Program-made: the position numbers and the translations under genes | Source: Bedellia somnulentella | Taxonomy: Eukaryota; Arthropoda; Insecta; Lepidoptera; Bedelliidae | DNA length: 64,000 nt | Assembly: GCA_963576735.1 (NCBI GenBank) | Contig: OY755171.1 | Span: forward strand, 19,070,182 to 19,134,181 | Reading direction: 5' to 3' | Shown here: piece after piece, positions 24,443 to 45,400 of the stretch | How the letters are laid out: each line of letters opens with the position of its first letter | Position numbering within the stretch: the first letter of the stretch is position 1 | The notes under the pieces: model-generated | Told to the model about the DNA's origin: nothing | The model's database searches: none | Seen by the model: the letters and a program-made list of their open reading frames with translations, nothing else

Positions 24443-27400
24443 CTGGAAATGTGTCGAGTGTATCAAGTATTTGCAGAGCTTCACATTGGTAGCACGGGTT
24501 GTCGTTGTACTGATTACTAGACTGGCTGGGCCCGTCAGGTCCAGCCTGATCCCGTAATACGGATCTTTGCGACCATGAATTGCATCGTGAGTTGTAAAGT
24601 GTTATATAACATTGACAGCAACAGTGAATCAAGGATGCCAAAACCCGCAAAATAGCATTAAAAATAATAAATATGTCCCTCGGCATATCAATGGAGAACT
24701 GCCAGATTAATTCTCCTCCGAAAGCAAACAACCGTCGGATTCAGCCGCCACCACTTGGTCTTCTAGACTGATAAGGAAAAAACGGCAACGTATAACGGAA
24801 TTGGGGCCAATTTACCAGGTCATGGAAGCTGATCTGACACACAATTTGGGTTCTTGAATGGTAGAAAGAGCCCAAAAGCAATTGAGAAAATTGGATTGGA
24901 AGACAAAGAAGCAAGAAAAAGTACTCAAAGAACAAGTGAATACTCTGCCTTGATTGAGCTTCATGACCGAATCCTACTGACGGACGGTAATCGCCACTGG
25001 CTTCTGTTCTTATTAGACCAGCTTGATACCATATGATCCATGTAGAATGGCATATTTTACGTAGATCAAAAGAAGGTCGTTTATGCGTCCTTTTTACCAT
25101 ATCCTTGAAAATAGATTGGTATTTAGCCTGACGAATCTCTACCGGAAGTGCGTTCCACAATTGAAAAGCCTGCACAGTGAAGGAGGAGCCATAGAAATTG
25201 GTTGAATGAGAGGGAATACTTAATAGAAGATTATGTTCAGAACGTAGATTAGGATCGTAGGAATAGAAGAAAAATTGAAAACGTTCTTTTAGATAGAAAG
25301 AAAAGAAAGAAAGAAAGAGAGACATTTATTCGCTGTACAGAACATGGAAAAATAACATTAATAGAGAAAAAAAAATATAAAAAAACAACACATTATTCAA
25401 TTCTCAAAGCAAGAAAACAAAAGTAAACAAGAAAAAACATACAAATATAATAATTTAATGTTATTGACATGAATTCCTCATGTGGGGATTATTACTCATA
25501 AATAAAAGATGTTATTAAAGGAAAGAAAAATTTCGACACTGGCGGGGTTCGAACCCGCGACCTTCGGGTATACGCCCCCGTCGCTCTGCCAACTGAGCTA
25601 CAGTGTCAGTTGGCATCCAGCGCGAAATTTCTCTATCCTTTGTTTCTTTTTTTACACGTTCAAGTAGTGTTTGCGTTTCCTACCTCCGAATTTAGGATAG
25701 AGAAATTTCGCGCTGGATGCCAACTGACACTGTAGCTCAGTTGGCAGAGCGACGGGGGCGTATACCCGAAGGTCGCGGGTTCGAACCCCGCCAGTGTCGA
25801 AAATTTTTCTTTCCTTTAATAACATCTTTTATTTATGAGTAATACAAATATAATATTTAGAAGGCAAGGCCTCTGTGAGCTTTGGAAGCTCACAACACTG
25901 ATTTTCAGTCAGCACAGACTCAAGTGACATTGCGAGCATTACACCATACGGAACAGATAATTGGACATACGCACAAAAAGTTTATACAAATTTAAACAAC
26001 ATAATTGACAACTGTATATACTAAATAAACAAAGATAAATAATAATTATAGAATAAAAATATACAGATATAGAATACGAATATATAACTGTCGCACTATA
26101 AGATAACAGAAATATATACACATATATATAAACACACATACACATATATATACACACATATATATATGACATAACATAGTGATATGATACATGTAATGAT
26201 TTATAGGCATAATAAGATTTAAAAACATAATCATAATCATAAACGGGAATCTGCAGGTAGGACATTGCGGGATGGGTTTTGCTGTGCCAGCAAGTAATCT
26301 CTAAGCTTACGCCCAAAAGTTTTCCTACTGGTCGCAGCACGTATAGGTGGTGGAATATCATTCCAGCACTTGGACGCTGCAAATCTAAAGCTACCCCGAA
26401 ACGCCGCTGACCGGTGCATTGGCAAGATCGCTCTAACTTTAAACTGGTAGTCACTTTTTGACCATTGCAGTTTTTTATGCAAATAAGTGGGCGATTCCAG
26501 CTTAACTACACCGAACAGCAGAGTGGAAAGATGTAATCGTCTACGGCCCTGCATATTCAATAGCTTTGCATCGTCCAAGTACGGCGTGATATGGGAACGA
26601 GGAGGGATGCGAAAACAAAAACGTGCGCATGCGCTTTGCACACGCTGTATCAGCCTTTGTGTACGACCAAGAATGCAGCTGCCATAAACCACATCACAGT
26701 AGTTTAATCTCGATAATACCAGCGACTCACAGAGGTGAACACGCAAATCCACACTCAGGTAGTCGCGTATATTATAAATGAAAGGGGTGGCAGGATTGAA
26801 CATAATAGAGTAAAGGAAAGTGAGAGAGAGAGATAGTGAATGTGCATTCCGGCGGAGACGAATAGGAAGCCATTTAAGTTGAGTGCGATATGCAGCAACA
26901 TGATCATATTTCCGCAATCCAAAAATAAACCTAATGCAAAAGTTTTGGAGGCGCTCAAGTTTATTAAGTTGCTCTTCAGTTATATCAAGGTAGCAGGTAT
27001 CAGCATAGTCAAGAAGGGGCAGAAGAAGTGATTGAGCTAACGCAGTTTTAGTAGCAGTAGGAAGAAAATTACGCAATCTTCTGAGGGATTCCGCTGAAGC
27101 AAACTTCTTTCGGCCTACCATTACTAATTGGTGATAATATAAGGTCCCAAGATAAGGTGCTATCTATCATTTAACTAACTATAACTAGTTTACCGATCTC
27201 ACCTTCCAAAGGTTGTCTGGAAGAGATCGCTTTTAGCGATAAGACCGCCGATTGTACCTCATTGTAAACTGTATGATAATTTCTAATGTAAATTTGTGTT
27301 TGATGTACAATAAAGAGTTATTCTATTCTATTCTATTATTTATTTATTTATTTTATCCCTAGGTTTTTCACTGTAGGGCTAAAAGGTATTGATGTACCGT

Positions 27401-30400
27401 CTAATTATATAGGCGGTAGTGATGTATAGTCGATCCTAGAAATAATTCGAGAACCTACCGACTATAATTATCTGTTTCTTATTTGGATTCACTTTTAGTC
27501 CATATGCTTCACTCCATTTCAAAATCAGCTCCAAATCAACATTAATCAAGTTTGTGGACATATTTAATCGGCCAAAATTAGCCTGTGTGTAAATCTGAAT
27601 ATCATGTGCATAAAGGTGGTAGGAAGAAGTTAATTGAAGAAAAGGCATAAAGGTGGTAGGGAGAAGTTAGTTGAAGAGAAATACTATTTATCAATATAGC
27701 AAATAAAAGAGGAGACAATACAACACCTTGTGGAACACCTCAGTCACAAAATTCAAAATTGCTCAAAACAGGTCTCAAAATTGCTGAATTCAAACAGATG
27801 ATGGCTAGAGTATAGATGAACATAAATACTCATATTTGAGGCGTATTTATTGGTGTTACTAGATTCATGGTGATTGCGGGCTAAAACAAGATCAGTACCT
27901 ACAATATGAATCAATAATATTATATGACGCCATTTTAAAATGCCAATTTATCGCTCACCTCAGCAGCACTAGTCCTTGGACGTTTCTTATGATGAGTATT
28001 GCTGTGGGTAGTCGTCTTTTTCTTCACGACCGGAGCTGGCTGCGTCGCACTGAACAAACCTCTTTCTTCTGCTACATCTATCATGTATTTGGCGTCGAGT
28101 CGGTTAACTTCCTATAATGAGTTATGGACATGATAGTCATTTATGTTGTCCAAATTATTCATTTCATATTGAGGTAATATTATGTAGTGTTAGATATCAA
28201 TATCACTATCATTCTCATGGGTTTTCTAAGAGGCAACTTAGGGTTAGTCTGCCAACACGTACTAGGAAATAAGTAGGCTGAGCTCTTCCTTTTGGACTTA
28301 TACGAAATGAGATAGAAAAGTAAAATTGTTGGCTATCTTTTATGTTGTAAACGCTTAAATCTTTATCTAAATGATAATTTCGTTACGCTATTGATTTATT
28401 TTTTAATGATTACTTCATCTGTTATAAAAAAAACTATTGTCCTCACCTTTCTCTTAATAAGAGCAAGGTAACACCCATCCCTCGCAGTTATATAATCAAT
28501 GTCTAATCCATTCCCTAAAGTTGGTAGGGCTTGAATATGGAATATATCGGTATCTGGAATCTGAAACGAATGATAATTATAGCACACACAGTACGGATGT
28601 AAACGAAGCCAGAGAGGTTCGCCAGGATCGTACAAAGTGGCGATTGATAGTCTCTGCCTACCCCAATGGGAACTAACGGCGTGAGAATATGTATGTATGT
28701 AAACAGTACACTCACAAGGCGACGCGCACTATGGTTGTTCTTGACTAGTTTACAAAGAAATTGTGCTACAACATAAGACTACAAATGTGTTATGTAAAGC
28801 GGTTACTTTACTACAGGATTTGCATACATACATACATATACTCACGGCTATAAATCCCTTAACGGGGTAGCCAGAGCTTTGGAATGAAAAATTCCTCAGC
28901 CACTTTTGGAAGTTGATTGGGGAAAAGATGGTAATAATAAATGTTTTTGGTGACGGGTCTCCAACCACATCGCCCAAAAATCACTTAAAAAGCCCCTATA
29001 CCCTTAGTCGCCTCTTACGATCACCCACGGGTAGAAATGGGGTAGTGTTATTCTAAGCCGACACTACACAGAAAATAATATAAAATACAGGATTGATACC
29101 TTTGACTATGAACACTATAGACAGATTCATAATGCAACGGGAGAGTACCTCTTTAAGATAGCAATATTTTTCCCTGTAATGTTGCGATCACTAGAAAACA
29201 ATTACCCCAATATACTATAATCACCATTCTAAAAGCTACTTTTTAATTTGAAATTGATTACGTCAATTTATTGTTTCATTAAAGGTTTACTGTTTACTAT
29301 ATTATTTCCTGCTCTTTTTTGTTTAATTTTACCATTTATACTGATGTTTAATACACCGTGAAATCTAAAGCATTGTACTAACTATCAGGGATGAATCTTC
29401 CCATGATTACGAATAAATTTTTGTACGGGACTAACTTTGTTACTGGACAAAAAAAATCAGCTGTTCCATAAGTGCAAGTTATGTAAATATCATACGGGTC
29501 ATGGGTATAGTGGGGTCTATGTTTGTATTTTGAAAAATAAAAGACAGCGCTATTTTATACATGAGTTTTATTGCATTATTTACTATTGACCTTTAAACAA
29601 AATCAGTTTCGTGTGAAAATTTCGAATTCTTTCGTCTATTTCAGTCACATTTTTCATAAGATGATGTATTCGTACCTCTAAGTATTTTAAAGCTATAGCC
29701 TTTATTAACAGCACAAGGTGGTTTTCGAACGGATTTTGCTCTCTGATGTGGTCGTTTAATGTCGGAAATATTCTTTTACCTAAATTCTTTTTCAAAACAA
29801 CTGCGACCATTTGAGCCAAAGCTTAGTCTTTGGACAAAAACGAGGTGCCTTTCAATTTTATAGTATGCCTCAAAACTTTGGTTGATTTCCAATTGCATCT
29901 TCCAGTGGCCGCAATCCATTTTTCTCGTAGATTCGGGTCTTTAGGAAAACTGTAATGAATACGAAGAAATTAAATGAATATAACAAATTTATTACTTACT
30001 AATTCCGTAGATAACAATTGGAAATCATTCAGCGTCGCTATAGCGCGACGAAATTCATAATATACTCACTCATTAACATCATATTACTAATTTGAAAATT
30101 TTACCCTAACGACAGGGTAGGATGAAAACGTGAATTATGGCAACACTGAGATACTGCATATTTTTAGGTTATACTATTAAAAAATTGCTCAAAATAACTA
30201 AAGAAAATGCTAGTAATCTAGTTCAACGTAATTAACAGTTGAATCACTTATTTTCTGATCGCGCAATGTATTTATTATGTATTTATCTAAAGAAAAACAT
30301 TAAAAAACTCACTCACTTGTGGAAAGTCAATCCTTCGATGTGTTTTTCGCTGTGGCTTCCGCAGCCAAGCACGCTACACCCAACCATACCTTACTAAATA

Positions 30401-33400
30401 ATAACTTAAATAATGGAGTCTCTTTTGTCACAATAACAATATACAAATGAATAAAATCTTTCTCAAAATCAAAAGAAAACCAAAATCGCTCACAAGTCGA
30501 CGCTTTGTTTGTCACAATTTAAAAATGTGCCATCAACAAAACGGGTTACGCGATAGAGATGACAATAAAGATTTGTGTCTCTTTCTAACATATAAGAACT
30601 TAAATAAGGGCTTCTCTTTTTAAAATGGATGACGTAACATCGCTCTGTCTATAGTGTTCATAGTCAAAGATTGATACCCTTTTCTTTGTTACAATACAGG
30701 ATTTGGAACAAAGAAAAGGGTATCAACGCTAACGAACGTTTCTAAGCTTATCGCGCTTGACCGATATTTCATAGCAGAAGTGTATGTGTGTGTTCATTAA
30801 ACTTAAAACGTATTTTGTCCAGAATTGCATACTCACGTCGTCCTCCTTATTCTCAGATTCTGTTGTTGGCTCGCGGCCTAATCCTGGTATAGGCCTGGCA
30901 GTAGCCATCATTGCTAAAACTACCTCTTTGGCATTATTGTTGTCTGTATTTTTGGGTGAAACAACTTGAGGTGCTGCTTGACTTTGCTCCAGATTATTTT
31001 CTTCATCTTTATTAGCACCATTTTCCAAGTTTATATCCATTGAATCTATCGATGTAATACTGTTCGCCGTTTCTGGACGGACTTTTCCACCCTAAAAAAG
31101 AAAAGATGCATGAATGACCCATTTATTTATATCATTACCGACGTCATGTATTACTTACATACATACATACATATACTCACGGCTGTAAATCCCTACAAGG
31201 GGTAGCCAGAGCTGAGGAACTAGAAGTTCCTCGGCCACTTTTGGAAAGTAGAGTGGGGAAAAGATGGTAAAAATAAAGGTTGTTGGTGATGGGTCTCCAA
31301 CCGCATCGCCCAAAAATCCCTTAATAGCCCCAATACCGTTAGTCGCCTCTTACGTACACCCACCGGAAGAAATGGGGTAGTGCTATTCTAAGCCGACACT
31401 ACACAGCATATTACTTACACTGCGTTTCTTCTTCAGGTACACGTGTCTTTCTCTTGCTAGTTTATTAGCCTCATTTACAGCCCTTGTGACTTGAGCCTTG
31501 TTTTCTGCTTCCAATATAGAGTGCGTTTCATAAAGGATTAGCTGTATCTGTAAAAAATAATTATATAGGCTGACAATTTTTATAAAGGTTTCAAGATTTT
31601 ACGTTTTATTAAATAAAATATTAATATGAAAACTATATTGAAGCTATGTTAGAAACAAACCCAGTTCTTTCTTCTAAACCCTAAACTTCAGCCTACAAGC
31701 AAGCTTTCTTTACAGATATTTTAACGATACGGTTAAGCTGTTATTTTTGTTGTGTAAACCTATTATTTCATTTCAAAAGTAACTAGCCTTTAAGGTAAAA
31801 TATTTAAAAACTGCAACGCTAACTTTAAATATATAACCCAAACCTGTGGCTTCGAAAGTAGAGCTTTCAAAGTTTTCTTTTGTTCATCCAAAATTGATAA
31901 AACGCGTGCTTTGCCTTCTCTGTTTACCTCGGATTCTGTAAGTATCTGAAAATAAGTGGACAATACTTGATAATCGTGAAAAGAATGGATACTCTACACC
32001 CACACCCATACACTGGCACATCTGGATTAGACAAGTGAAGCGTACCATTTTTGGTCTCTGCTTTGACTACATTTTGATTTGTTATTTAAAGGTTTTCAAT
32101 AATATTCATTATTACCATCACTTTACGTACCTCCAGCATAGTGATATCTCCTCCGCGACCACAAACCAAGTCAATAGGATCAGACACCCCCGAGTAAGAG
32201 TTGGGAGGGGTAGCCAGCACCGCAACAACCCCTTCTAAAGCACTATTAACCTCCGGGGTGTCGCAGTACACGAAGTCGCTTATCACTTGCACTGGGGCGT
32301 CCAGACTTGATGATGCTTCTACTCCGAGATTTCGAAGGTCCGTCAAATAACTATCTATTCTGAAATAGAAAAAAAATATTCCTGTAATGTTTCTGTTCAC
32401 GTCAGCTCTTCTTATGAGTGTCCTATGAGGCAACTTTTAAGGAAGCGCAGATATTAAGGTTTTTGAAGAAAATACTGGAAACCAGTATAGTAACCATATT
32501 TTCTGGTCCAAAATTCCGCAGAGTCTAAAGACAAAGTTCTTTGACTAATGTGTGTTGCCAGTCATGACCTACGACACAGAGACGTGGCCTCTAACAATGG
32601 GCCTCATTAGAAGGCTCCGAGTCACCCAAAGGGCAATGGAGAGGGCTATGTTAGGAGTTTCACTACGCGATCGAATCCGCAACGAGGAGATCCGTAGAAG
32701 AACCGGGGTCACTGACATAGCCCGAAGAATTGTAAAACTGAAGTGGCAATGGGCAAGGCACATTGCACGCAGAGCCGACGGCCGTTGGGGCTCGAAGTTT
32801 CTGGAGTTGCGGCCACGTACCGGACGACGCAGTGTGGGTAGGCCTCCCACAAGGTGGACCGACGACTTGGTCAAGGTCGCGGGAAGCCTATGGATGAGGG
32901 AGCACAGGACCGGTCGTTGTGGATCATTGGGGGAGACCTATGTCCAGCAGTGGACGTCTATAGGCTGAAGATGATGATGATGACTGGAAACCAATCAATA
33001 AAAATCCATAGTTTTACGTAATTTTTTCCTACTCAACCTATTTTCCTATGAACTTTCGAAAGTGGTTGAGAAATTATTTATTTCAAAGCTCTAGCTCTTC
33101 AACTCTCGCCACTTAAACGCTTTCCACGAGAAAAAACGAGATAATATTGACATACTTATCTCCCGCTCCAAACACAATAAGCTTGCCAATCGAAGGAGTA
33201 ACAATAGTATTCGGGGAAGTCTTTCCTTTATCCGTCATGGCCAAGTCTCGGAGCTGGGCTGCCAAATACGCAGAGCATCTGGCTGAAGAAGCGTGCGTCT
33301 GGGCTACTGCCCCTTTGATGGAGTTTGCTCTTATTGCTCGGCATAGTGTCGATGCGCCTTCGCAGAATTCTCGCTCCTAGGACCATTCAAATTGATGATT

Positions 33401-36400: not shown

Positions 36401-39400
36401 TCGAAACACTTTTAATTTATAATTCCAAGCTTTCAAACTGCGCACGAAAAAGAAATACTTTATTGCCTATCAAATCCAATGATTCAGACTTTGTTTAGAC
36501 TGAAATAACTTGCTATAAACAAGTATCGCTTTCGTGTGTCCTCAGTGGATTGGAAAAAAACAATGGTTTCAGTCACGTTACATGCTTAATGTGATTTAGA
36601 TTGTAGTAAATAAATGCTTATCTTTTTAGCCCTCGTAAATGATATTTATTGCATGTTTTATAAGGAGAAAGTCAACGAGTTGACCTTGACGAATTTTATT
36701 TGGAAAAAGATTAGCGATACCAACAACATCAAGCTGTATGATTAGTTGTATGAAGCTTGCAATGAAGTGACGAAGTGAGTTTTCTCCAGTACATTTATTG
36801 GACTTTTTACAACCTATGCCTGTGTCAATACCGATAGTCTTGTTGTGGGGTGTTTATAGAACTAATTTAAACATACATACATACATATACTCACGGCTGT
36901 AATTCCCTAGAAGGGGTAGCCAGAGTCAAGGAATTATAAATTCCTCAGCCACTTTTGGAATTTGCGTGGGGAAAAGATGGTGAAATAAAGGTTTTTGGTG
37001 ATGGGTCTCCAACCGCATCGCCCAAAAATCCCTTAAAAGCCCCAATACCGTTAGTTGTTTCTTACGATCACCCACGGGTAGAAATAGGGTTAATGTTATT
37101 CTAAGCCGACACTACACGGCAACTAATTTAAAGTTAATAGGAATAACTTGAAGCGGGCTGTTGAAGACTAATGGTCAATCTTAAAGCGTTTTAAATTTTT
37201 TTTCCGTACAAAAAAAAGTGTCGTTCGCTACGGCGGGCGGCATTTAGAAAGTGTCAAGTCTGTAAATTGAACAAACCAATGGTAGATATGTTTAAACTAT
37301 ACCTCCGGGTATACAGGAAAGAAATCGGAGTCGTTGATTGCCACGTCTAATATAGTTTTATCTGAAAAGAAGCACACGTTAAGAAATTACATACATACAT
37401 ACAAATACTCACGGCTGTAAATCCCTAGAAGGGGTAGCCAGAGTTAAGGAATTAGAAATTCCTCAGCCACTTTTGGAAATGATAGTGGGGAAAAGATGGT
37501 AAAAATAAAGGTTGTTGGTGATGGGTCTCCACTCCAACCGCATCGCCCAAAAATCCCTTAAAAGCCCCAATACCGTTAGTCGCCTCTTACGTACACCCAC
37601 CGGAAGAAATGGGGTAGTGCTATTCTAAGCCGACACTACACAGCAAGTTTAAGTTACGAACGTTAAGAAATTAATCAAATCAAAAGTGTTCAAAATCGTA
37701 CCAGTCGAGATAAGGATCTAGAGTTTTAAATGATTGATAGGCGATAAGCTCAGTAACCCAACGCAAATTATTCTTCATTGTAATTTTTTCCTTCTTTATA
37801 TAAATTTAAGTGTCTTTATTCCGAAGCTATTTCGGGTCATAGTACATAGATAAGTTTATTGGTTATTGCGAGGTGAAGCCAATCCAATTACGCTTCTTAG
37901 GCGGGGGTCCGAAGTTAGAAGAATAAAAGTGCATGTATGAGAAGAATAATGAATGTAAGGGAAGCAAGAGAGGTTTGTCAAGATCGACTAAGTGGCGATC
38001 GATAGTCTCTGCCTACCCCAATGGGAATAATGGGCGTGAGTAGGTATAAGTGATTAAGTAAGTAAGTACGCTTTTAAGTATAGTTCTGTGTAAAAGACAG
38101 AGAATAATCAAAGATTAATAAAATAACGAACACGTTCTACAAAAGTCGGTTTTAGAGGGTATCAATTTATAATTATTTATCTATTAACTATTATAAATAA
38201 ATATATAAAAATAAATATATACGTACATATTACACAGATAAAGTAGGCCCCAAACTGAGTAAGACTTGTATTATGGGATACCAACTCAACGATATATTTA
38301 ATATTATATATTATATTATAAGAAACAATCATTTATGCTCATTACATAAATGTTGCTCTCAGCGAGGATAGAACCCGCGACCTCCGGACTAGTCTAGACT
38401 AGCTAGTCACCTATCCACTCGACCACGGACGTCGTCAAAACAACAATTACATTAATTAATTCTGATGGCAGTTTTTAAGAATTTCTATTAAATAACATAA
38501 CTGAACATAAACGTTCACGCCGAATATCCCCGAAGGGGTTGGCAGAGGTACTAATACTTCGGAACATCACGTGACTTTGTCACCTGGTGTTCAGAGTACC
38601 CACGTTTTGCATGGACAGTGTACTCACGTGATAGAAGGCAGGCCTATCGCCGTTTTGTACGAATACACTGTCACATGACTAAGTACAACTCAGCCATGTG
38701 GGTTTCCTCACGATGTTTTCCCTCACCGTTAACAACCATGATAAATTAACCACACATATGTCTTTAGAAAAGACAAATTGGTGTAGGCCCGTCCCAGGAT
38801 TGGAACTCACGCCCTTCTGTTTTTCGGGCGGGTGTTCTTACCCACTGGACCATCATGTCACTGGTCACTGTCATTTCTATTAAATCTGTACAATAATATA
38901 CTGATCTAAAAAAAGTACCTAAACAAAAGCGACATAATCTGAAAGAATCAACCCAACCGAAAGACAACTCGTACAAAATTGAAAGGACATAAATTAAATC
39001 AGTTTTCCCCAAACATGCAACTGTGGCAGAGAGCGGTTACATAAAAGCCCTTCACGACTGACGTGTTTCATACAACTTTGCAAGATGTTTCAAGGACATA
39101 TCAAAATAAATATCCAATCACATGTATGGGGTGAATTTTATTGTCACACATTCGGTTTTCGTCACGATATGTTTGGCACACGAAACCGAATGTGTGCCCA
39201 GAACCTTGGTTGATATTGACTGCATTATGCTATGCGTTTTCTTTCAGTTTGTCATTGGAAGGACATAAGTGAAGAAGAGCTATTTTATACAAAAAGCTAT
39301 CATTCGATGCAAGCATTGAAAATTTGTTTTGACATTGTGCAATTCTCGGTATAAAGCAGAAAATACTGATCATTTAACTAATTGAGCCAAATAATAGTGT

Positions 39401-42400
39401 ATGAAAATAATTCATTTATTTGTGCGCTACATAAAAAAAAAAAAAATTATTCATTAATCACTATTAATTGATTGCTGTGTAGTATGAGATTTGAATTGTA
39501 TTGAACCATTGCTACCTATGGGTGTCGTATAAGGACGAGGTGACTTAGAATTTTAAAGGTGTTAAAGCTATTCTTAGGCGATGGGGTAGGACCACCGGCA
39601 AGATCAACAACTATCGTTTATCGATATGCTTTAGTCAAAGGTCGCTATCTGCAGTACTGTCCGCGGAATAATTAATTTATCCAGGATTCGATCAAAGTCA
39701 TCAGGCTAATCCCCCATAAGAGATGGTGCTCCTTATTTTGGTGGAGATGGTCCATCTTATAATTAATCAGGCTCCGAGGTTATGTTTCATGGAGTATTAT
39801 AATAAAGAAAACTTCACTTTTGGACTTTAATAGTCATTAGAAGTTTTTGTGTTAAAAGTTTAAATTTGAAACAGCAAAATATCACCGTAGCCAATCTGAT
39901 AACAGTAAAACTGAGTTTACGACTGCAGTCTAGTTATAAGATTCTCGTGAGGCAATTTGTCAAACTAGGTTTGTTTCTTTATTGCCGTGATATAACACAC
40001 TAAATTGTGTCATAATCATAACCATCACGGAAATAGCTATAGCTTTTTTAATTTGAATGGGACATAGTTTTAACAGACTGCACATTGTACTTATTTTGAT
40101 TAACTCAGCTTAGATTGTCGAAACTGATCCGAGTAAATAGTCAATCGGTGGCTCTCTAACCGACTTTATCTTTTTAATATCAATATACAAAATACAATTA
40201 AGTAATGTAAAACGGCGGATTATACAATCCGACTGCAACACATATTCAATACTTAAACAGATAATGTAAGCTATAAATGCCTAAATATGGTAAACTGCCC
40301 CAGTAGGTCATGTAAAAAAACGTTTTATGGATAAAGTCAGTTTAAGTTTTATTATCAAAATATCTGTACCGCATATCTGCTTGCATTCCAAATTCTAAGA
40401 CGAATAATTTTAATAGATAAGTGATAATTTTAAAATGAATTTATTTATCATAAAATCCTAAAACTGTTGGTGAAAAATAAAATAAACCTTACGTTTTGTT
40501 CTATGAACATAATTATTTTTAGTAAAGGTTTGTAAAACTATCGTTTTTTAGTGTATATCATTTTATGAGACTTTCGGCTTAGTGAGTTTTGAGGTCAAAG
40601 AAGTGGTAAAGTTTTGATAGCTGTAATGGGTTCCCAGGTGTTACAGTATAAATTAAGATACAAGATAGTGAGCTGTGCGTGTTGTTCACAGCAACTCTAT
40701 TCGTTGCGTGTTCAACGCCATTTTAGTCCTATTAATAAAGTTTTCGATACGAATAGTGTCATATACTTTTCCATAGTAAGAAGTATTGTTCAAAATGTTA
40801 AATTAGTGTAGATAAGTTTCTGAAATACTATCTTTTATCTCAGAGAATTTAATACTATACTTAAGTTTAGTGTGCGAGACACTATTTTTTATATGCATCT
40901 ATATTTTTACTGAGTTAGGTTGTATTTTTATGACGTTTGTTCCTATATTCTTACGGTTTGTTCTATTTCCAAACATACTTATATTAATATTGCAAGTTAT
41001 TCTGTATTATTGTTGCAAGTACACTTTCAGATAGAGCGATTTTATTTCTCATTTCATTACATAACTGATAGCAGACTTACAAAAGACATAATCTGGGGGC
41101 ACGGCAGTGCCCCTGCCAAGTCTCGAGCAAAACGGGCACGGCCGTACCATCTTTTCTCGAAGCGGTTCGCGGCTGTTTCGCCCCCCCTATATCTTCGACG
41201 TGGACAAAAATAGGAGTTTAGGTTTTCGGTGAATAATAGTAGGCATTAGAACAAGCTTAAGTTCGAAATTACACGCCAAATGAATTAATAGTTTAGGAGT
41301 TACGGTCGATCAAAGTTACACCATTTTGTCACTCACTGACTCACTGACAGATCATCAAAAATCTAAGGTACTTCTAGCAGACTTAGAAACTTCAAATTTT
41401 GCACCAAGATAGTTCATTAGCCACATATAAAGGAAAAATTATAAAAACATTAAAAAATTATATGCCATAGAAAACAATTTTATATTTGCGGTTTGGCAAG
41501 AACATTATGTATGGATTTTGACTGCATTGTTAACTTTGTTCGTTGTTCAAGTACCTATTCAATTGGATGAATACATACATAGAATAGAAAAGAATAATAT
41601 AAATGTAATACATAGACTATCATTAATACAAATTAATACATAAAGTTCATTAAATTAATAAAGCTAAAACTCCATTGTATTGCGATAAATATTGTATGAG
41701 CGCTCGATAGATGGCGTTGTACCTGTCTGAATCGCTCTATGGTTTCGTTACAAAGCGCAGTGTAAGTAGTACTTCAAAATAATTCGATAATATTCATTTG
41801 ATACATCTGTCAATGAAAACCCATTTCGAAACTAAAAAATATTGTAGTGATAATTGAAATTCGGAGAACTTTACGTGTTATTTAGTTTAGTTTAGTTATA
41901 GTTTGTAAGTTAGTAGATATATATTTATTTAGTTAGTTATTTGTTAGTTAGTTTAGTTCTATTTAGTTTGCATATATATATAAGTTTAAGCCCTATTGTT
42001 ATAGAAGTAATTGTAAATATAGTGTAATGGAACGTGAAATATTGTACATAAATGGCGACCTTTGTCCCCACAGAGTCATCTCTATTCCTGGAGATGGGTC
42101 GTGTTTATTTCATTCGTTGTCATACAGCATGTATGGGAGTTTTCAGTCGTCAAACGATAAGGGAATTTTAGTAGTATCAAAGCTCAGGAGACAGCAATAG
42201 CTGAATATAATACTCCGAAGTATATATCGCCCAGACTTGTCTACCTTAGAAGTAACGAAGCCTCAGAGAAGAAACAAAAGAGATAGAGACAGAGAATGGG
42301 TTCTAAGCAAAGCAGTAGCTGACGTCCAAGAAATTGTGAGGTCACCTAAAAGTAAAAGAAAGAAATACACTTACAAAAAATAAATGAGATCCCACCGAAA

Positions 42401-45400
42401 ACATTAAATGTAAAAAAATGCCAAGTCTCTCGATGCAGTCTTTCCATCGTAAAAAGTTTTGAGATCTCATAGAAGCCAAGTCCTATTCAAAATATTTCGT
42501 AGTTATAAATCAACATTTAGTAATTGTATCAATAGTTTTCTTTATATTATAATTATAGTGACTTGGCAATGAGCACAAATTAAAAGCTGCTTGCTGCCTG
42601 GAATTATGTGCAAATGTTACTGACGAGACCAGTGATCAGATTATTTGTTATGTGTGAATCATGATGGTCACTACCGACTACATTCTCCAATACAATAATT
42701 AAGAATACCTTACGGGCCATCGCTTTATGAAAGTAAATGAATCGAGAGTGCACTAAGACTGACTGCCGTTGCCGAAATTCGGTTGGGACGACACGGATAA
42801 ACCAACAGAAAATTAATTTTGTGATATTAATGTTTACGCATGCGGTGTGTGTAACTTTAAACTCCTCCAAATATGCCGTTTTATTTGTTTCTTCTTGTGC
42901 TCATTGCCAAGTCACTATAATTATAATATAAAGAAAACTATTGATACAATTACTAAATGTTGATTTATAACTACGAAATATTTTGAATAGGACTTGGCTT
43001 CTATGAGATCTCAAAACTTTTTACGATGGAAAGACTGCATCGAGAGACTTGGCATTTTTTTACATTTAATGTTTTTGGTGGGATTTAAATATATATTGAA
43101 ATATGTCGTACAATTTAGAAAAGCCTTAATATACAGTGTGTCCAGTAAATAAACGTCCAACTGTTAACCACCAATAGAGGACCCTGTGAAGTGCCCGGAA
43201 ATACATTTTTTTTTATTTTAGAAATAAGCCAGGTTTAAGTTGTTTTTTATTTTTTTAAATTCCTTTGGGCTATTTTGTTATGGTAAGAGGGCAAAAATAG
43301 GGATATCGGCATATTTTTTTTTTTAATTAGACTTCTAATGAAGCAAAGAACAGCTTGGTTAGCAAAAATTGAGGATTAGAGGAGAATTGGTTAGCAAGAG
43401 GAGGACCACTTAAACCAGGCTTATTTCTAAACCAGGTTTAATATAGTAAAAATATTGCATTTCCGGGCACTTCACAGGGTCCTCTATTGGTGGTTAACGG
43501 TTGGACGTTTATTTACTGGACACCCTGTATGTATGTTTTTGTAATTTCATACAAAATTATACTCTCGCTATTAGTTCCCATTGGGGTAGGCAGAGACTAA
43601 TTAATAACTTGATGATACTTACATCGAAATACATCGTAGACGATGGAGTAGATGCATCGCATTTCTGGCTCATCAACGAATTTTACCTTCATGGGAGGTT
43701 TGCATAGAAGGCATGCTGCTTTTAGTACCTTTTGTAGGAAGAAAATAACAATAAGTGAAAAGATACATACATACATATACTCACGGCTATAAATCCATAA
43801 AAGGGTAGCCAGAACTAAGGAATTAAAAATTCCTCAGCCACTTTTGGAAAGTTTAGTGGGGAAATGATGGTAAAGTAAAGGTTGTTGGTGATGGGTCTCC
43901 AACCGCATTGCCCAAAAATCCCTTAAAAGCCCCAATACCGTTAGTCGCCTCTTACGTACATCTACCGGAAGAAATTGGGTAGTGCTATTCTAAGCCGACA
44001 CTACACGGCAAGATATCATCTACAAAGTTTACATGTATATTACTAAAAGTAATAAATCCTATAAATGGGTAGCCAGAGCTTCAGAATGAGAAATTTCTCG
44101 GCTATAGCTGGAAGTTGAGTGGGAATAGATAGTAAGATAAAGGTTGTTGTTGATGGGCCTCCAAACACATCGCCCAATTATCCTTTCAAAAGCTCCAATA
44201 CTTCGCCTCTTACATGAATTGCAGTGTCTAGTCTAGTCTTAGTGCTATTCTAAGACAAATTTGCGACTAATGAAGGCTTAGTAAATATTTCTGTTTCATA
44301 AATATATAAACAATTGTTTGAACATACACAATTTTCTTTTTGGTATCCAGTGAATATCAGTTGAAACTTCTTTTACATTTATTTGAGAAGGAATATTTTT
44401 TAGTTATCTAATCTAATTGTACATACATATACTCACGGCTATAAATCCCAAAGCTACCCCTACCCAGAGCTTCAGAGCTAGAAACTCCTCAGCCACATTT
44501 GGAAGTTGATAGGAGACAAGATGGTAGAAATAAACTATCGTTGGTGATGGGTATCCAACCGCATCGCCTAAAAACTACGTAGAAAGCCCCATACCGTTAG
44601 TCGCCACTTACGACACCCGGCAAATTGCATTTAAAATTCATCATCATAAATTTAAATAGAATTGCAGCATACCTTCTCAATATCCCAGACGGGTGAGGGG
44701 CTGGATTTGACGCAAACCGGCGGAGCTGAGTTCACGTTGTTCAGTATCTCCGGCCGCCATGGTATCCAGGAATCTGGCTGTTGGTCAGCATCTTTCCCCT
44801 TCTCATCCCTATAATTAAATTTTTACATACATACATATACTCACGCCGTTAATTTCCATTGGGGTAGGCAGAGTCTATCGATCGCCACTTTGTACGATCC
44901 TGACAAACCTCTCTTGCTTCGTCTACATCCATCAATCTTTTCATACATGCTCTTTTATTCTTCATACTTCGGACGCCTGCCTTTTTGGTTTTGCTCAAAA
45001 AGGCAGGCGTCCGAATTTAATTTTTGTGTTAGGCGATTGCTGTTTAATAGTGTCGGCTTAGAATAGCACTACCCCATTTCCTCTCGTGGTTGTTCCTAAG
45101 ATGCGACTAAGAGTATTGGGCCTTTTAAAGTTCTTGAGCTAGTGAGATTTATTGCTGTTCTATGGCTATAGTTACATGTTGCACGCAGGCAGAACTCTGA
45201 ATTGGAGCTCGGTTTCTGGTTAACTTAGTGTTCGTAGAAGCTTTTCACTCAGCCGATGATAAGACTTGGGGTAGTGACTTGTAAGGTGGCAAATAGGTAA
45301 TTGTAGAATTTTTTGGGTAGGATGACTGTGAGGATATATAAGTATGCGAGGATAGATATATAGTATAGGGTTTGAAACGGCACCAGAACAATTATATTGT

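Follow-up and report, generated by a model that had tools for sequence, protein, structure and literature searches.

A SINE between two copies of a splice donor in an NSUN7-like gene of the moth Bedellia somnulentella

Target duplications that carry splice signals have already been described beside mobile elements. In the dog, the merle SINE of PMEL17 is reported as an insertion at an exon-intron border with a 15-bp target duplication and with the original splice site kept beside the exon, and the length of its tail is described as affecting both splicing and coat colour (PMC7349775). Introners, by the account given in PMC9860276, draw a splice site from the target duplication. As for SINEs with short tandem tails, HaSE1 is described with target duplications of 5-18 bp (PMC3272025) and SfSE1, of 298 bp, with an (ATGT)n tail (PMC8010984).

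The locus presented here lies in a window of 64 kb (the whole stretch of DNA analysed, positions 1-64000), in a gene on the minus strand. As described in the dog, a SINE is found at an exon-intron border with a target duplication, the original splice site stands beside the exon and a competing site is present in the insert. However, the merle case concerns an acceptor and an element in reverse orientation, whereas the moth locus concerns a donor and an element in sense orientation and is known from DNA alone. The likeness to introners, as far as their description goes, is that splice-site sequence next to a mobile element stems from a target duplication; introners make new introns and most of their families carry DNA-transposon signatures, whereas the moth SINE is a retroposon enlarging an existing intron. 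An introner identity of the moth element was considered and rejected, because the element includes neither the acceptor nor the other 67 nt of the intron. With HaSE1 (PMC3272025) and SfSE1/PxSE1 (PMC8010984) the moth SINE shares, by their descriptions, the length class, the short tandem tail and the frequent location in introns. Among the titles and abstract openings searched, no report was found of this locus or of a donor duplicated by a SINE in Lepidoptera, which is no proof of absence. By analogy with the dog SINE and the introners, the locus is best seen as a donor-side instance of a known phenomenon.

The SINE and its flanking repeat

The element and the repeat on its two sides are as follows.

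31160-31408, minus strand: SINE copy of 249 bp, sense to the gene, ending 3' in a (TATG)n tail
31149-31159, minus strand: distal duplicate, exact match, reading TGTAAGTAATA on the gene strand, with the distal donor GT at 31158-31157
31409-31419, minus strand: proximal duplicate, exact match, made of the last exon base (31419) and the donor GTAAGTAATA from 31418, in the context AGT/GTAAGTAA

On the minus strand the SINE begins at 31408 with TGCTGTGTAGTGTCGGC and its tail finishes at 31160, ends which agree with those of the other copies. Indeed, copies of the family have a common start TGCTGTGTAGTGTCGGCTTAGAATAG and a common end GCCGTGAGTATATGTATGTATGTA, although they vary and some are truncated at the 5' end, and these shared ends indicate that the borders given in the initial annotation were right. 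BLAST of the 249-bp repeat against the window returned 40 rows, of which 30, query included, have E <= 3.4e-16, so that the element is present as many short dispersed copies, as is typical of a SINE; 17 of these 30 alignments span at least 240 bases, and eight rows, counting the query, exceed 91% identity over at least 240 bases. The simple-repeat 3' tail typical of SINEs is present as well, (TATG)n being found in most of the 24 copies examined and the tail motif recurring at 22 sites; the minus strand carries 18 of these 24 copies. The window as a whole is very rich in this family. Compared with a consensus of 13 copies of the younger group, itself among them, the SINE at 31160-31408 has 8 mismatches over 248 sites (3.2%), its nearest sisters differing by 2.8-3.2%. 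It is thus probably not brand new; both target copies flanking it are still identical. A search of 31100-31450 against Rfam for a Pol III head gave no family at or above the gathering score, and ARAGORN, run with the bacterial code, listed no tRNA at the SINE.

The repeat TATTACTTACA occurs as these two exact copies, with no others on either strand of the window, and they adjoin both ends of the SINE exactly. On the gene strand it corresponds to the final exon base plus the donor, the duplication taking in the last base of exon G (T at 31419). For 23 SINE copies, the longest exact match between upstream and downstream flanks was determined, excluding matches of the tail unit alone, with swapped flank pairs (n=506) as control. 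Matches of at least 9 bp (range 9-14 bp) were found for 16/23 own pairs compared to 3/506 swapped pairs, and matches of at least 10 bp for 13/23 compared to 0/506, while 7/23 own pairs showed a match of only 4-6 bp. The family hence displays target duplications of variable length, and 31160-31408, given the contrast between own and swapped pairs at 9 bp, is an ordinary SINE insertion whose target duplication measures 11 bp; the initial annotation had already proposed an insertion with a target duplication. Such a flanking repeat is the normal signature of retroposition, which would have proceeded by target-primed reverse transcription. A chance repeat beside an old SINE, with no target duplication, could draw on the low-complexity TACA/TATG tail and on swapped flanks that match over up to 9 bp, but it is hardly credible for 11 bp abutting both element ends, when not one swapped pair extends to 10 bp.

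The exact extent of the duplicated target is less sharply fixed than the repeat itself. The family tail ends in TATGTATGTA in the consensus, and the first four letters of the duplicate, TGTA, fit the tail as well as the target; AGTAATA alone is therefore surely target, and the GTA of the distal donor could derive from either the SINE tail or the target. The distal GTAAGT could accordingly begin with tail sequence, TGTA having been joined by microhomology or by chance to the target AGTAATA, with a shorter target piece duplicated. Given the consensus tail end and a four-base overlap that fits either side, this origin has a sizeable chance of being right, though we consider it short of the favoured one; seven target bases still match at both exact junctions and the distal donor sequence is identical whichever side supplied TGTA. 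It departs from the main explanation only in the source of these four bases and is otherwise compatible with it.

The NSUN7-like gene and intron G-H

Joining eight minus-strand exons at their splice signals yields a single open frame of 443 codons; seven further exons were placed, in order, by tblastn searches using lepidopteran proteins. The traced gene comprises 15 exons from about 44.8 kb to 24.3 kb; the borders of the first, second, A2 and last exon were adjusted by eye, and the third exon has weak protein support (tblastn E 0.019). A protein search with the 443-aa translation returned 56 proteins, the top ten being 58-66% identical and nine of these ten coming from named Lepidoptera. Among more distant relatives, P0027 and P0030 (E 1.0e-51 and 8.9e-50) bear the name NSUN7. 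The NSUN7 identity given by the initial annotation is thereby supported by homology, the names being the sources' own. No Pfam family, and hence no methyltransferase domain, was found above the cut-off for the 443-aa translation or for four single exons, so the gene is claimed only as NSUN7-like by homology. A PDB sequence search gave a single match (E 0.74), which is not meaningful.

Other features were observed along the gene and the window. About 17 nt separate the end of a tail-like piece, GTGAGTATATGTATGTATG, at 44824-44873 from what appears to be the acceptor of the first traced exon, and this acceptor region may thus be partly repeat-derived. In the H-J intron, 29583-30400 on the minus strand holds THAP-like words (KDPNLREKWIAATG, by eye) and a 79-aa open frame, and is perhaps another gene or a transposon remnant. 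A 308-aa open frame at 26237-27163, minus strand, resembles by eye the end of a LINE reverse-transcriptase protein.

The exons and the intron around the SINE, with the donor-like sites inside it, are listed below.

31419-31547, minus strand: exon G, 129 nt, placed by tblastn and alignment, acceptor TTTTTTACAG
31092-31418, minus strand: intron G-H, 327 nt now and 67 nt in the reconstructed empty site
30837-31091, minus strand: exon H, with an open G-H join in phase 0 via the proximal donor, carrying an RPIP motif
31179-31180, minus strand: SINE-internal donor-like GT, GCC/GTGAGTAT, U1 duplex -7.7 kcal/mol
31362-31363, minus strand: SINE-internal donor-like GT, CCG/GTGGGTGT, U1 duplex -10.5 kcal/mol

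Exon G shows 81-86% identity in tblastn to four proteins among the matches listed (nine proteins run). An alignment of 20 of the 56 protein matches held 16 lepidopteran-like and 4 non-lepidopteran sequences, the latter less alike at the end of exon G. Among the 16, exon G is complete in 15, up to ...RERHxxxKKK or nearly, and only its first part is present in P0015. The same 15 rows carry RPIP further on, a motif found in the window in exon H, and the intended join thus links exons G and H. With the donor at 31418 this join is in phase 0, from AGT/GTAAGTAA to TTTTTTAG/GGT.

Removal of the element and of one duplicate gives a reconstructed empty site, with an intron of 67 nt starting GTAAGTAATACATGACG. 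At the proximal donor the exon bases and the first ten intron bases of this empty site are all unchanged, while the distal donor has the same ten intron bases (+1 to +10) preceded by TAT instead of AGT. The gene does carry two copies of the donor GTAAGTAAT, one beside the exon and one beyond the SINE, as had been noted at first. Since the proximal copy retains the exon edge and ten intron bases, the old donor stays usable, and the proposal that its survival explains how so close an insertion was tolerated is sound as logic.

Which donor is used

Pairing with U1 was computed with a duplex program in which the register is not fixed, using the U1 5' end sequence. The proximal donor (-8.0 kcal/mol) has a slight edge over the distal one (-7.0 kcal/mol), the difference being small, and an out-of-frame GT at 31420 that overlaps the proximal donor reaches -8.2. 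The SINE itself brings donor-like GTs with pairing similar to or above that of the duplicated donors: GTGAGTAT is found near the 3' end in 18 of 24 SINE copies, and the GT at 31363 has the strongest pairing among the GTs listed between exons G and H. If the distal donor were used, the exon would grow by 260 nt to 389 nt and the frame would shift, meeting a TAG after 11 codons; the two SINE-internal donors tested lead to the same TAG. The addition of about 260 nt foreseen by the initial annotation is therefore reproduced by the computation, but to it must be added a truncation of the protein after 11 extra residues.

We are fairly confident in the reading that a SINE insertion duplicated the donor of this NSUN7-like gene, with mainly proximal use to be expected. 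The inserted element would be a lepidopteran SINE tailed by (ATGT)n, and its landing site the opening bases of a short intron that was already present; the tail and the duplication point to LINE machinery and target-primed reverse transcription. Staggered nicking would have left TGTAAGTAATA on both sides, up to four bases of which may be tail instead. The copy on the exon side would retain the old donor in unchanged exon context, allowing the normal G-H join and removal of the SINE as part of a longer intron, and the copy beyond the SINE would be a spare one, with the acceptor 67 nt away. A transcript made from this spare donor would stop after 11 codons and probably be degraded. Given that the gene is intact and that U1 pairing is slightly better at the proximal site, mainly proximal use would be expected, while distal or SINE-internal donors would be used to some extent, as noise.

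Donor choice has been analysed in human genes, where, according to the results outlined in PMC9225289, the donor nearer the downstream acceptor is favoured among donors of near-equal strength in short introns, and the donor nearer the upstream acceptor in introns longer than ~250 nt. In the same source, human minigenes that carried a pair of equal donors, with flanking introns of 365 nt, are described as using the upstream donor exclusively, and all human events before the equal-strength filter as showing a downstream donor preference of ~60%. At the moth locus the intron upstream of exon G measures 296 nt and the downstream one 327 nt (proximal donor) or 67 nt (distal donor), which places it on the border of the ~250-nt rule as that source presents it. 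Indeed, the insertion moved intron G-H past ~250 nt, the size at which splice-site pairing is reported to change in these human data (PMC9225289), a point absent from the initial annotation. Human rules of donor choice may not hold in an insect. Against mainly proximal use stand the 67-nt intron of the distal donor, which has the size reconstructed for the ancestor, and, in the same human results, the downstream preference reported for short introns and that of ~60% over all events before filtering; by analogy the distal donor could prevail, and in an insect all the more.

If the distal donor were mostly used, pairing would occur across a 67-nt intron as before, exon G would gain 260 nt, and truncation and decay would lower output, making this a partial loss-of-function allele. 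The identity of the two donors from +1 to +10, their similar U1 pairing and the position of 67 and 327 nt on either side of the border described in PMC9225289 speak for this alternative. We nevertheless regard it as unlikely, since it entails a 389-nt exon with a stop whereas the rest of the traced gene is open and conserved, and since a strong loss might have been removed over the age suggested by a divergence of 3.2% from the consensus.

Other SINEs in the gene and significance of the doubled donor

A second SINE of the same family in the same gene, at 37390-37645, lies 28 nt upstream of an exon acceptor. It is flanked by TAATTTCTTAACGT, a 14-bp repeat, at 37660-37673 and 37376-37389, with 14 extra bases between the upstream copy and the 5' end of the SINE. 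The copy at 37376-37389 just precedes GTGCTTCTTTTCAG/exon and contains CTTAAC, a putative branch point by its look; CTTAAC is found 21 times in the window, counting both strands. Another SINE, at 43764-44010, stops 35 nt short of the acceptor of the exon that starts at 43728, and its 6-bp flank repeat is no better than chance.

Within 36 nt of an exon are found 3/12 of the intronic SINE copies and fragments of the NSUN7-like gene, with 0.75 expected (binomial P 0.035); the count is again 3/12 within 40 nt (P 0.046), and 1/12 within 12 or 20 nt (P 0.22 and 0.35). The cut-off was picked after the data had been seen, and the set of 12 includes two short fragments (39473-39529 and 28652-28701) and excludes, because it lies upstream of the first traced exon, the tail-like piece at 44824-44873. 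For these reasons enrichment near exon edges is not claimed, and the proximity is suggestive, not established. The chance that a whole donor (6 positions) falls inside an 11-bp target is ~0.005 per intronic insertion and 0.06 for 12 copies; such events would be uncommon in one gene and presumably numerous genome-wide. A broader proposal, which we hold as speculative and doubtful, is that in SINE-rich genes of Lepidoptera target duplications insure splice signals, so that insertions at exon edges survive more than expected. This gene would illustrate it twice, with the donor at 31409-31419 and with CTTAAC, the branch-point-like sequence at 37376-37389; the two donors, set between an intron of 67 nt and one of 327 nt, would then offer a natural test of intron versus exon definition.

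The doubled donor is an ordinary consequence of how SINEs insert, and it illustrates that insertions near exons need not harm, as the splice signal can travel with the duplicated target. If the proximal donor alone is used, the event amounts to ordinary intron enlargement. If both are used, the locus would be a natural minigene, with donors identical from +1 to +10 and 260 nt apart, straddling the size at which pairing across introns is thought to switch to pairing across exons. The appeal of the locus is that of a natural experiment on donor choice.
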